From Ancylostoma caninum (taxonomy: Eukaryota > Nematoda > Chromadorea > Rhabditida > Ancylostomatidae): a stretch of DNA of 64,000 nucleotides. The translations under genes and the position numbers were made by a program. Under the pieces are notes generated by a model. The model was given only the letters and a program-made list of their open reading frames with translations. It was not told the origin of the DNA and did not search any database. Positions 10,778 to 25,194 of this stretch are shown piece after piece (the stretch's first letter is position 1; each line of letters opens with the position of its first letter). The stretch lies in the NCBI GenBank assembly GCA_037903475.1, contig JBAJFG010000185.1, positions 124,001-188,000 on the forward strand, in the 5' to 3' direction.

Positions 10778-11232
10778 GTAATGGATACGATCACCCTCTT
10801 TATGATCGTACCATTTTAATCCCAAAAATAGCCTCTGGCATGCCAAACACAAGATTCTCATTACTCAGAATTTATCGTTATTCACATCAAATACAGAAGG
10901 CAAGACGATTATGAGCGACACAAATATAGAAGACGGCCATGAACGTTCGGCCAGGACATGGAGCGAATAGACGGCACGGGCGAAGACGTGGTGGTGCCCA
11001 GACGTTGACCTCTCTGCTCCATTGACGTCCTCGATTGGGCTCCTCCTCTCCTTATACAGTATCTGGGCGCGGCCGAAGTTCACCGGTCTGAAAACAAAGA
11101 TCTAACGATAGGCATGGGAATAACTACATTACACTAAGTAGAATCTAAGGCATTTAGCTTGGAATCCAAAGCAAAAAGAATAGGAGACTTACACTATGGC
11201 TAAAGTAGATTTTCTATTTACAGTTATTTACA
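10778..11232 (-). repeat. 3' LTR of element B
   Basis: It matches 24740-25194 with one noticed difference. Flanking base block ATCCA at 10773-10777 is the target duplication. A TGTATAAGGAG box on the minus strand, near 11050-11058, is the likely TATA element. Confidence 0.92.
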
Positions 11233-11246
11233 TCTCCCCCCTTTAA
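11233..11246 (-). promoter_or_regulatory. polypurine tract of element B
   Basis: Read on the minus strand it is ATTAAAGGGGGGAGA-like and ends exactly at the LTR start TGTAAATAAC. It lies 20-30 bp after the helicase stop codon, so the helicase gene is inside the reverse-transcribed unit. Confidence 0.8.
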
Positions 11247-11265
11247 TGAGAGTCCGTCCTCGGAC

Positions 11266-14200
11266 TCAGAGTTGTAATAGGGCTCGCATTGAGTTGTCGA
11301 AGAAATGTAGATCCGTGACCAGGTTTCTGTCCTTGCACCATGCGACTATCGCGGACCATGTGGCGGCATCCTGCAAGCATTTGATTGACCCTGTTACAAA
11401 CATACCGTCTTTGGCACGTGAAAGTGCCACATTCAGCCGTTTTGCGTCTGAGAAGGACGCGGCCTTTGATCCTTGTTCGAGCGAGGTCCTCGTTGTACAA
11501 AGGATGACCACTGATCGCTCTGATCCTTGAGCGCTGTCCACGGTCCCCACGGTGACTGCTGTGTCCTGTAACAGAGATTGGCAGAGGAATTTCTGATCTC
11601 TGTACAAACAGATCACTAAAATGTCCTGTGGAGCGAATCCGCGTGTGATCAAGAGGCGCACCAGCACGTTTACCGTGTTGGCTTCCACGACATTGCTGTG
11701 TGAACCTGTGACGGACTTCACTGATTGGCTGGGTACATCCACGAATGCAATCGGGATTGCTGGATTGGGCATTCGCAGTCTGGATAGTAGGGCTCTTCGC
11801 ATGTGTGGCGGAGTTCCACAAATGAGCTTACCTTCGTAGAAGAGGTCTGAGTTTAACCTCATCATTTCTACGTGTGGACGGTATATGGTGCTCACTGTGC
11901 ACACTGGTACGCTTGCGTACCTGCACGCTAGGTCCACTACTGACCTCGAACTCACCTCTACAGCTAGGGGGATCTTGTGTACCCCGATGTATGGAGGCAG
12001 CTATTTACTGTCCCCGATTAACGTGAAACGTGTCTTCTGAAATCGTGAAAACATGGATATTAGAGCAGCCTCTGGAATCATTGAGGATTCGTCCAAGAGG
12101 GCAACTTTCCATGTGTTTCCTAACCTGCGCCACAACCCCCTTTTTGAGGTTAGGTTAAGGGCAGCTGAGATTGTACAAAGGTATACATTTGGTTGGTACA
12201 GCTTAATAAAGTGGCCTATCAACACGTGAACTTCCTCAGATGCTGCTTGTTCCAACAAAAGGAGCTTTTTGTGTTCAGTGGTAACCACGTGACGTTGGAT
12301 TCCACTAAACATGAACTCACGCATTTCCCGCCTGCTGACAGAGAAGGTTTTAAATTTCCTATAAAGCCTGTCGGAGAGCAGGTGGCGGTGCGTCTCATGG
12401 AAATTTTCCATCAACACCTGAAGTGCGAACGGCGATGCGTTTGATGGGTCGTTCGCCATCAAGTCGTTGACGTATCTTACTGGTCGTATCTGGTTTGATT
12501 GCAGTTGCGCGATCTTGGAACCGATCACGTCAAGTGCGCTATTTTGGACGGCTGCTACTAAGATTTTCTCGCCTTTTAGCACTGCCTCCTGAGCCATAAC
12601 AGCGGTACAGAGGGACTTACCTGCTCCGTACGCACTGTCCACGACCAAAATTGGGTAATTTTTATTGAACATGTTTACCGCGCTCACCTGATCCTCATTG
12701 AGGTGGACCTGCGTTCCTGCGACATCAACTGAAATGCTCGTTTGCTCTGGAGCATCAATACCTGCTACCTCTACGTCTCCTGCAAGTAATGCGCGGGCGG
12801 ATATCCAACCGGTGGTATTTGTGTGGAACAGATCCGACAGTTTTGCACCTTCTAACATTTTTAGTACCGGATTTGCACGCTCCTCGACAGTATATAGGGT
12901 CGTTCCCACCGAAATACGTCGATTCCGGGAGTTGATCAGGTAGGTTCGGAAACGAACGCCTGAACCCGTTGATAATTTCGCCGTTACGGTCAGAAAACCA
13001 TTACCCATTTGAATTTTGGAGATCTGGCCGTCCAGAAGATCGGCTTCGTACGCTCCACGAATCGTGTGACCAACGGCCCATCCCGTCTTCTTTTTGATCG
13101 GGATGCGGAACTGGACCTGAATAGGGTAACTGTTAAGATTTGGCGAGGTCCATATGACGTAATGCGTGGCCGAATCCATTGAATCAGCAATGGCGGCAGT
13201 AATTGCACCACAAGCCGTGCTGTACAGTGGTTCTAAGAAGCCCAGAACTTCCTGTGGTCGAGTTTGGAATAGGTCGAACCCTTCCAGCTTGCTTTCAATA
13301 AGCTTCTGGTGTTCCTCGCTGTTGTTGCGGATGTTACCTGGTGCTGGTGGAGGGCTCTGCAAATATGGAATGTCCGCCACATAGGACATGAGCTCTGTTT
13401 GCTGTTTGGGCGGACAGGCAAAAATCATATAATCCAGCTGACGCGAGCGAAAAGGGGCTACTATGAACGAGTTAGCCTTTATTTTTGGAAAGTCCGCTGG
13501 ATTTTCCAAACGGTTACGATTTACCGTAACCAGCTGACGATGACCTTGCATGCAAATGCGAAAAGTGTATTCCCTGGCATTTACAATATTTAGAACGAAA
13601 CCAAGCGTGGGTCGCAGTTCCCTATAAACCAACGCGAAACGAGCGACTCTCCAGACGGTTGGCTCTCGCAATTGGGCAGCTGTCGCCGCAGAGAGAGGCG
13701 CTTGCACTTTCGTCGAAGCAAATTTGGTAGTAACTGCTAGTGAGTAGACCCAAATTAGGTCACCAACTATTAGTTTGGTGATATCCAAACCTCTTTTTTC
13801 AGTCTTGATGTTGATCGCAAACTGATCTAAAGTAATTAGCTGCAAATCAATCCTATCTGGAAATGGTACCTCGAAAAATACGGATTCCGACTTAGCACCA
13901 TTCCCAAACAAAGATTTGATTCGGTAGAGAACTGGAGCTGTTCCATCATTGTCGAAAACGAGGCCATGAACATAGGTGTTCTTTTCCTCGGCGGTCGCCT
14001 CTTCCTTTAGTGGCATCGTGGGCAACGGTTCCTTGGCCTCTCGAAGCTGTTCGAGGCCTTGATATCGGTTCGACTCTCGGAAGTCCTCGATTGCTTTTGG
14101 ACCAACGGCTTCTAAAATGGTAACAATTGATCGTATTGACCTTGGTACGGCTCCAGTGGACTCTAGGAAAAGTCCCTCAACCAAACCACTATAACCTGAT

Positions 14201-23665: not shown

Positions 23666-24721
23666 CGAAGAATGGGATGAGCTGGAGGTTTCCCTGGAGT
23701 TGGTTTGAGAGCGGGTTACTGGACGACTGATGATGAAGGCAATAGGAGAAGGCGTTGCTTCTCCGCAGCGAGGTCACTGTAGATGGCACTCGCCGAGCAC
23801 TGGATGAGGCACTTGATGGCGAGGGCTCTATATACAGTTCTCGATTACGACCCCTCTTTGTTCGCGCCGATGCTCCAAGTTTCCCACTGGCAAGATGTTG
23901 CCAGATGGGGTCGCAGATAAAGAAGCTTTTTCCGCTAGTGAACTTTGAAAGGACTGCTCGGAGATGCTATCTTTCATGGGAAAAGCTCTTTGTTTTGCAT
24001 GAGCACAGCGCATGAATGGCAGAAATTCAAATTCTTGGCGAGAGCAGACTGGTCCGTGCAGAGTACTTTGTTTACCGCGGACAAAGAGAGCAGTGCTTGC
24101 AAAGATTCAGCCGCAAGTGGGAAAGTTTCGGGGCGAAACACGTGTTCATAGACAAAGAAGCTCTTTATGCCTTTATATGTACGATTTTGTTTACTTGAGC
24201 CCACGTAAAATTCAAAATTTGAGAGGCAATGGGAAATTTTCTTATTCAAATGAGGCATAGAAAGGATAAAAGATCACGCCAGAAAAAATAATGAGGAGGA
24301 GAGAGGATTTCTTTGCAAGGACGTGCGAAAATTTGTGATTCCCACCAAAAATGAGCAAAAACTTGCGAAAAAAAGTGCAATTTCCATTTTAAGATGAAAA
24401 ATAGTTTTATGCTCCTGGTCCCTGGCGGTAACGAGGATAATAAGTTCCTAGGAGATCTCCTATGGCCGTTTCGTCTTGCATATCACACCAAAACACAGGA
24501 GAAAATCACCGAACGCACACAATAAGGTAGTGAAAGAGGAGAAAATAGGGGGATTCTTAGCTGAAGAGTTGCGCACCTCTAAGCTACACCCAGCTAATTT
24601 ACCCAGTTTCACTTACCCCCGGTTGAGGCTTAAACCGAGCTGAATCTCCTGAGCTAACCTCAGGAGGACAACATTTTCTAAGAAGAGGAAAGGTTCGGTG
24701 AAGTCGCGGGCTACTATGAGG
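23666..24721 (-). other. 5' leader of element B
   Basis: About 1 kb lies between the primer-binding site and gag. The gag frame is open upstream of 23665 to about 23777 but shows no ATG there. No conserved protein is visible. Packaging and splice-donor signals would be expected here but cannot be named from the sequence alone. Confidence 0.5.
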
Positions 24722-24739
24722 CCGCACTCGCTGCTACCA
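24722..24739 (-). promoter_or_regulatory. primer-binding site of element B
   Basis: On the minus strand TGGTAGCAGCGAGTGCGG begins right after the LTR terminus CCATTAC. The first nine bases, TGGTAGCAG, match the initiator-methionine tRNA primer sites used by many retrotransposons, after which the match falls off. Confidence 0.65.
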
Positions 24740-25194
24740 GTAATGGATACGATCACCCTCTTTATGATCGTACCATTTTAATCCCAAAAATAGCCTCTGG
24801 CATGCCAAACACAAGATTCTCATTACTCAGAATTTATCCTTATTCACATCAAATACAGAAGGCAAGACGATTATGAGCGACACAAATATAGAAGACGGCC
24901 ATGAACGTTCGGCCAGGACATGGAGCGAATAGACGGCACGGGCGAAGACGTGGTGGTGCCCAGACGTTGACCTCTCTGCTCCATTGACGTCCTCGATTGG
25001 GCTCCTCCTCTCCTTATACAGTATCTGGGCGCGGCCGAAGTTCACCGGTCTGAAAACAAAGATCTAACGATAGGCATGGGAATAACTACATTACACTAAG
25101 TAGAATCTAAGGCATTTAGCTTGGAATCCAAAGCAAAAAGAATAGGAGACTTACACTATGGCTAAAGTAGATTTTCTATTTACAGTTATTTACA
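24740..25194 (-). repeat. 5' LTR of element B
   Basis: Begins TGTAAATAAC at 25194 and ends CCATTAC at 24740 on the minus strand. Target duplication ATCCA follows at 25195-25199. A TGTATAAGGAG box lies near 25012-25020. Confidence 0.92.

Follow-up and report, generated by a model that had tools for sequence, protein, structure and literature searches.

Why a nematode retrotransposon should carry its own helicase gene is the question raised by a 64,000-nucleotide stretch of Ancylostoma caninum DNA (hereafter the window; positions 124,001 to 188,000 of contig JBAJFG010000185.1, assembly GCA_037903475.1). On the minus strand of the window, at 10778-25194, lies a Ty3-type long terminal repeat (LTR) element in which a gene for a Upf1-like superfamily 1 (SF1) helicase follows the integrase (IN) gene. 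The helicase is an inherited and selected gene of a retroelement lineage, neither a neighbor of the element nor a one-off capture, and the copy of this Ty3/Metaviridae-type retroelement in the window was inserted recently and is now defective. The layout of the lineage is LTR, Gag, class III Env, protease, reverse transcriptase (RT), RNase H, IN, Upf1-like SF1 helicase, polypurine tract, LTR. Contigs of the A. caninum assembly are designated here by C-numbers, the window copy being on C245, and protein gene models by P-numbers. Family A comprises the window copy, C437 and C418, family B comprises C599 and C633, and family D comprises C80 and C588.

The features that place the element among the Ty3/Metaviridae are the protease-RT-RNase H-IN order, an H2C2 and rve DD35E integrase, the LTRs, a primer-binding site, a polypurine tract and a short target duplication. 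A Pfam scan of the minus strand detected, in order, gag, aspartic protease, RT/RNase H, H2C2 plus rve integrase and a helicase split into AAA_11 and AAA_12 pieces. Ty3 is the top solved-structure match for both RT (2e-75) and IN (5e-29), and the Ty3 assignment rests on such matches; the DD35E spacing comes from a count by eye on the translated IN. The two 455-bp LTRs differ from each other by 1 substitution. An earlier interpretation made from the letters of the window (the sequence-only reading) had given the outer coordinates exactly, and the LTRs, ATCCA duplication, primer-binding site, polypurine tract, gag, protease, RT, RNase H and DD35E integrase that it listed were all recovered.

The helicase lies inside the LTRs, with its stop codon at 11266-11268, 33 bp from the 3' LTR. 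The sequence-only reading had put this distance at about 34 bp and had concluded that the helicase moved with the element, with which the genome-wide census of IN and helicase described below agrees. It had also called the helicase UPF1-like and credited it with all the main SF1 motifs. The Upf1-like SF1 core is indeed present (AAA_11 and AAA_12, with motifs I-III, V and VI), but the frame of the window copy is broken by a mariner-like insertion (about 14236-15496) and by one in-frame stop in the motif III region, and the first glycine of Walker A is replaced (SAYGAGKS in family A, AAFGTGKT in family D). The C-terminal piece of the window helicase matches AAA_12, the UPF1/DNA2 type, at 1.3e-35 as against 5.5e-4 for Viral_helicase1 (Pfam), and its solved-structure matches are DNA2 (2.8e-16), UPF1 (1e-15), ZNFX1 (NFX1-type protein 1), SMUBP2 and SEN1. 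The N-terminal region is long and without a Pfam match, and the structure prediction for the helicase is poor (mean pLDDT 39). A Helitron helicase, which is of the Pif1 type and which the earlier interpretation had already set apart, was rejected, there being no Pfam match to a Pif1-type helicase or a Rep domain at E 0.1.

The same gene order, LTR-gag-env-pro-RT-RNase H-IN-helicase-LTR, is found without the mariner in C437 and C418. C437 carries a several-kb insertion inside IN, and its flanks agree at 4 of 5 bases; C418 is rearranged, its helicase and IN pieces each being present twice and its 3' LTR split. Among partial copies of the window LTR family, C616:522800-531500 keeps RT, part of IN and the helicase, and C29 keeps gag and the helicase; three others are internally deleted and lack the helicase, namely C9 (gag-env-pro and the beginning of RT), C123 (gag) and C627 (gag and part of env). 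In family D, C80 has 403-bp LTRs that are 100% identical, a TGTAT duplication, gag, env, protease and RT-IN, and a helicase of 1,280 codons with no stops within the matches. The C588 helicase has 4 differences from that of C80 and stands in other flanks; C75 shares the C588 flank and may be a duplicate contig. In family B, C599 has 555-bp LTRs that are 100% identical and flanks that agree at 4 of 5 bases. IN stands directly before the helicase also in C160, C79, C75, C588 and C622. LTR-bounded copies with IN and helicase in the same order, which the sequence-only reading had suggested looking for, are represented by C437, C418, C80 and C599, and the order is seen again in the strongylid gene models considered below.

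A search of the genome with a 757-amino-acid helicase query gave 69 matches from the 59 of 119 first-look candidates that were scored, and an IN search listed 84 matches from the 84 of 755 candidates scored. A helicase was counted with an IN when a helicase match on the same strand lay no more than 8 kb downstream. Thirty IN matches of at least 41% identity correspond to 27 places, C437, C418 and C370 being counted twice, and equal-scoring places among the 27 (e.g., C75/C588, C41/C9 and C227/C13) may be duplicate contigs. Among the matches listed, a helicase match is found downstream of IN in 27 of these 30 (24 of the 27 places). The three exceptions are C41:234235, which has a helicase remnant, C323, which is at a contig end, and C16. 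The latter has identical 432-bp LTRs and is best read as a deletion copy, since its IN is cut short, a 19-bp fold-back of the LTR start follows and the polypurine tract is missing; the copy looks as if it had been produced by aberrant strand synthesis. Behind the IN matches below 40% identity no helicase is listed (0 of 54). Direct inspection of 2 of the 54 found, for C616:633312 (39%), env upstream of IN and, some 1 kb past IN, a degraded helicase, and for C29:2502454 (38%) no helicase in the 5 kb behind IN. The degraded element, C616:634100-640500, means that the clade extends beyond the matches listed.

The helicase matches include, among the 69 listed, long open frames of >1,000 codons at 22-47% identity, and 37 of the 69 have no listed IN upstream, many of these being fragments. 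No IN match was seen in the stretch inspected around the C383 helicase. The copy in C594 is internally deleted but has retained a D-type helicase (82% identity), with a stretch of gag next to it. A helicase relative in C57 (139708-141714) has a 1,235-codon open frame, with no IN, gag or env match in the 5 kb upstream, and is perhaps a solo, possibly host-adopted, copy or a deletion derivative. Two further copies with the same order, together with the genome-wide link between IN and helicase, indicate that the association is not due to chance, and the independent copies and the census reject the helicase as a neighboring or nested gene. Helicase-less copies of the LTRs, with separate boundaries around the helicase, would have pointed the other way; the helicase-less copies found (C16, which is the one well-resolved case, and C9, C123 and C627) read as deletion copies.

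The sequence-only reading had assigned the helicase to the position of env, and here it was mistaken or incomplete, having missed an envelope domain. This class III domain, resembling herpesvirus glycoprotein B (gB), sits in frame between Gag and protease in the window copy and also in C80, C633, C16, C79 and others; the helicase is therefore not a substitute for env, and the idea of an env replacement was rejected. Among the class III viral fusion glycoproteins (gB, Monjiviricetes), the domain matches by fold both solved gB and models of viral glycoproteins, and all 50 of the 50 rows shown in the VIA listing are gB, which does not thereby exclude other class III families. The PF24664 profile scores above cut-off in P0024 (31.7) and P0022 (29.0) and below it in P0018 (23.8), and gave no listing for the envelope domains of the window, P0015 and P0027. 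Among the matches listed, an envelope match lies upstream of 28 of the 30 IN matches of at least 41% identity (25 of 27 places), in contrast to 2 of the 54 below 40%. Relative to C633, C599 is without env, and a frame difference separates its gag from its protease. Because the near-identical C633 has env, because there is about 10 bp of near-homology at the break and because the frames differ, C599 is best read as a deletion copy and not as a product of splicing; an env-less family was likewise rejected, given C633. A deletion at about 10 bp of near-homology is as expected of template switching during reverse transcription.

Relatives of the helicase occur in Ancylostoma ceylanicum, A. caninum, A. 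duodenale, Oesophagostomum, Nippostrongylus, Haemonchus, Ostertagia and Heligmosomoides, with more distant ones in C. brenneri. The evidence across species consists of gene models, not proven transcripts, several of which fuse the helicase to RT, IN, gag or env: P0010 of H. placei, P0013 and P0032 of A. ceylanicum and P0017 of Cooperia and, further, P0027 of Oesophagostomum, P0030 of A. caninum and P0076 of Cylicocyclus. In H. contortus, P0015 (env and protease) and P0031 (helicase) have near-consecutive locus tags and equal-sized contigs, and equal contig size suggests, short of proof, that P0016 and P0032 share a contig and that P0007 and P0025 do so too. Judging by these models, the lineage is present in several strongylid genera.

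Selection on the helicase is seen within families, where the ratio of nonsynonymous to synonymous divergence (dN/dS) is 0.1-0.2; between families dS is saturated. The NG86 values of dN/dS are 0.0101/0.0492 for the window and C437 (742 codons, middle piece), 0.0030/0.0261 for C633 and C599 (1,161 codons) and 0.0003/0.0031 for C80 and C588 (4 differences only). Identities of IN and helicase are correlated (r=0.92; 15 pairs among 6 elements, P0010 left out), and 9 of 720 label permutations were as high (Mantel). The retention of the helicase by selection suggests that it helps in handling or protecting element RNA.

The helicase tree was built from 40 chosen rows (36 proteins and 4 loci), with ZNFX1, ERI-6/7 and host worm UPF1 left out. 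Twelve element-labelled rows (4 loci and 8 gene models, not all shown inside an element) form one clade with H. contortus P0038 and C. brenneri P0040, the latter on a long branch. This clade is separate from UPF1, MOV10/Armitage and bacterial rows (100/100), the UPF1 rows form their own group (100/100), and no close cellular sister of the element helicases was found in the 40-row tree. The CH domain of UPF1 (PF09416, E 0.01) has no match in four long proteins (P0003, P0007, C80 and C633). Identity with UPF1/SMG-2 is rejected by the missing CH match and by the position outside the UPF1 rows, and identity with MOV10/Armitage by tree position. Of the relatives named beforehand in the sequence-only reading, UPF1 and MOV10 are separated from the element helicases in this tree, ZNFX1 and ERI-6/7 being outside the row set.

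Table 1. Features of the window copy (positions in the window; strand - is the coding strand of the element)
Feature	Position	Strand	Basis
Target-site duplication ATCCA, left copy	10773..10777	.	Flank inspection
3' LTR, 455 bp	10778..11232	-	LTR comparison
Polypurine tract adjoining 3' LTR	11233..11246	-	
Hairpin AGTCCGAGGACGGACT adjoining polypurine tract	11251..11266	-	
Helicase, C-terminal part (AAA_12, motifs IV-VI), 244 amino acids	11266..12000	-	Pfam
In-frame stop in motif III region, window copy	12001..12003	-	
Helicase, middle part, comprising the first RecA-like domain (AAA_11, motifs I-II) and a conserved N-terminal region	12004..14235	-	Pfam
Mariner-like insertion that splits the helicase frame and has terminal inverted repeats	14236..15496	.	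Absent in C437 and C418
Helicase, N-terminal part, acidic and serine-rich (exon 2 in related gene models)	15497..16157	-	
Predicted intron, 154 bp, GT..AG	16158..16311	-	Implied by models P0001 and P0002
Predicted helicase exon 1 with ATG; TTATTTCAG 5 nt upstream	16312..16417	-	
Integrase (H2C2, rve, DD35E)	16735..18279	-	Pfam; closest solved relative Ty3
RT (main part) and RNase H, -1 frame relative to open reading frame (ORF) 1	18147..19439	-	Pfam; closest solved relative Ty3
-1 frame break within RT; C-terminal end of ORF1 ...RRPINEVT	19430..19459	-	
Protease and first part of RT, in the frame of gag and env	19459..20629	-	Pfam
Envelope domain of class III (gB-like) between Gag and protease, in the same frame; hydrophobic at its start and with a membrane helix	20630..22432	-	
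Gag (Retrotrans_gag; weak zinc-knuckle match)	22433..23614	-	Pfam
GTAAGT in untranslated leader, candidate 5' splice site	24611..24616	-	Same place in C437 and C418
Primer-binding site TGGTAGCAGCGAGTGCGG	24722..24739	-	
5' LTR, 455 bp	24740..25194	-	LTR comparison
Target-site duplication ATCCA, right copy	25195..25199	.	

The pol frame of the window clade is interrupted. A -1 frame break follows RRPINEVT in the window, C437 and C418, and NAVT in C599; inspection by eye revealed no canonical slippery heptamer at the break. Gene models P0015 (Haemonchus), P0016 (A. ceylanicum) and P0018 (Nippostrongylus) terminate at the same residue. In C80 RT is unbroken at this site, and the frame changes instead between protease and RT. 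An ATG in the helicase frame follows the IN stop in 5 of the 5 elements examined (families A, B and D, C79 and C160). A 154-bp intron in family A is implied by gene models P0001 and P0002, its exact acceptor string being present in the window and not in C437 and C418, and the splice-acceptor-like TTATTTCAG stands 5 nt before the helicase ATG in family A. Compared with shuffles, the top 3' splice match lying no more than 80 nt from the helicase ATG has values of 0.0045 in C79, 0.06 in C160, 0.13 in A, 0.36 in D and 0.78 in B. Splicing of a helicase message is plausible on these signals.

Between the helicase and the LTR, a hairpin core and a purine tract are found in family A, family B, C79 and C80. 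The core, GTCCGAGGAC, is at the same place in C437, C418, C599, C633 and C79 (5 of the 10 loci scanned) and in C80; an exact-core scan did not find it in C160. As a fold the hairpin is unremarkable against shuffles (z -1.15 in the window, which is not unusual, and a modest -2.0 in C80), so that the case for it rests on the conserved letters.

Retroviruses must bring unspliced RNA past host nuclear retention and decay, and the known solutions are small adaptor proteins, RNA elements or, in human immunodeficiency virus type 1 (HIV-1), recruitment of host UPF1. A polycistronic RNA with a stop inside RT should be a poor traveler under nonsense-mediated decay (NMD) and nuclear retention. In the window clade the RNA would have its first stop inside RT, about 7-8 kb beyond that stop and intron-like signals, so that nuclear retention and decay through UPF1/SMG-2 are to be expected. 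We tentatively favor, with slightly less than even confidence, a model in which the element helicase would act as a Upf1 mimic on the element's own full-length RNA, aiding its export and its escape from decay. This corresponds to the first of three possible roles put forward in the sequence-only reading, namely protection of element RNA, help in reverse transcription and counteraction of small-RNA silencing. The helicase would be made as a separate protein, from its own frame after the IN stop in families A, B and D, and would load on the full-length RNA to promote nuclear exit, survival and packaging. Mimicry of this kind would operate without the CH domain, which is the UPF2-binding part of UPF1. 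A Upf1-like helicase without this domain fits a role in export and decay escape, for which there are two precedents: HIV-1 recruits host UPF1 and excludes UPF2 for the export of its genomic RNA (PMC4693258), and in C. elegans unspliced Cer1 RNA depends for its export on the unrelated CERV protein (PMC10309623).

Several points weigh against the Upf1 mimic. C16, with its identical LTRs, was inserted without a helicase, and the helicase is therefore suppliable in trans or dispensable at some steps. Upf1-like motifs do not separate an RNA from a DNA substrate, DNA2 being the top solved match of the C-terminal piece, and the 757-amino-acid piece alone has no significant solved-structure match (best E 0.034). 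The splice-site signal is weak, 1 of 5 elements (C79) being clearly above shuffles, C160 borderline and A, B and D not above them. Env and helicase travel together, and so a role in particles is also possible. A broader proposal is possible but distinctly more doubtful: that this is an undescribed nematode retrovirus-like lineage in which a permanent Upf1-type helicase frees a long, multi-stop RNA from NMD and nuclear retention, with a gB-like fusogen within a Gag-Env-Pro polyprotein, export and infectivity both being solved in ways not known in retroviruses.

Helicases are central to nematode small-RNA pathways, and a rival reading, which we regard as rather unlikely, is that the element helicase might be a silencing suppressor, unwinding or hiding double-stranded and small-RNA-templated intermediates and so countering the Piwi-interacting and small interfering RNA (piRNA/siRNA) pathways. 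Such a function has been proposed for the viral-origin helicases captured by TRAS and Jockey long interspersed nuclear elements (LINEs), the suppressor activity of the TRAS helicase being cited as previously reported (PMC5563155). The LINE helicases are, however, virus-type SF1 proteins, whereas the window piece matches AAA_12 far better than Viral_helicase1. We consider it still less likely that the helicase is a particle-associated replication factor that opens RNA/DNA hybrids or structured genomic RNA while the unusually long genome (about 13-14 kb) is reverse transcribed. The length of the element, the coinheritance of helicase and RT/IN, the place of the helicase beside pol at nearly all places of the clade and the presence of DNA2 and SMUBP2 among the solved matches would suit such a factor; its predicted ORF is nevertheless separate from pol in families A, B and D, no Gag-fusion packaging route is seen, and C16 and C599 are deleted genomes that were still copied and inserted.

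A passenger helicase, captured on one occasion as a fragment of a host gene and serving no function in the element, is very improbable. The window helicase is broken and helicase fragments are common in the genome, but dN/dS is well below 1 in three families (one pair with 4 differences only), and the open frames of >1,000 codons at 22-47% identity and the same position in many families and several genera also argue against a passenger. A host helicase nested inside an unrelated element, or an assembly artifact, can practically be dismissed, because no supporting point was found, the same order recurs in independent insertions with different flanks, and in several families the helicase is followed by the hairpin and polypurine tract.

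Extra ORFs in LTR elements are already known, and it is against these that the Upf1-like helicase lineage has to be set. It shares with other Ty3/Metaviridae the PR-RT-RNase H-IN order, the H2C2 and DD35E integrase and the 5-bp duplication, and differs from them in the SF1 helicase gene after IN, the envelope domain between Gag and protease and, in the window clade, the -1 break in RT. Cer1, likewise an LTR element of nematodes, encodes an additional protein that is translated from a spliced mRNA and is needed for unspliced RNA export. CERV, however, is a protein of 517 amino acids with its first exons in the gag frame and no obvious homology outside nematodes, and is set apart by this description; the word helicase is absent from the main text of that paper (PMC10309623). 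The TRAS and Jockey LINEs of insects are also retrotransposons with a captured SF1 helicase, but they are non-LTR elements with a virus-type helicase within ORF1 or ORF2 (PMC5563155), whereas here a Upf1-like AAA_11/AAA_12 protein has its own frame. LTR elements of bdelloid rotifers have an extra enzymatic gene in the third-ORF position, as here, but it encodes other enzymes (a DEDDy exonuclease or GDSL esterase), and the passages available describe no helicase ORF3, the word helicase being used a single time in the text (PMC5408684).

A captured viral fusion glycoprotein is shared with BEL/Pao elements (Anakin; Tas and Cer-7). A gB-like env has been ascribed to Tas (PMC9094657), and the origins of env have been given as phlebovirus for Tas and herpesvirus for Cer-7 (PMC7642597). 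The env-like proteins of Roo, Tas and Cer-7 are downstream of the polyprotein (PMC7642597), whereas the domain described here belongs to a Ty3-type element, in which it stands between Gag and protease in the same frame. UPF1 (SMG-2) has the same SF1 core of AAA_11 and AAA_12 and is among the best non-nematode matches of the element helicase, which differs in having no CH domain match, a position outside the UPF1 clade and a long N-terminal region without a Pfam match. Among titles and the beginnings of abstracts, with subscription literature mostly outside the search, we found no description of an LTR element with such a helicase gene or of a Gag-Env-Pro order. An in-frame Gag-Env-Pro, if truly translated so, breaks the usual gag-pol-env order. 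A retroelement lineage with its own Upf1-like helicase would be a natural experiment on surveillance helicases turned to element use and could serve to test whether they act in RNA decay, in reverse transcription or in small-RNA silencing.

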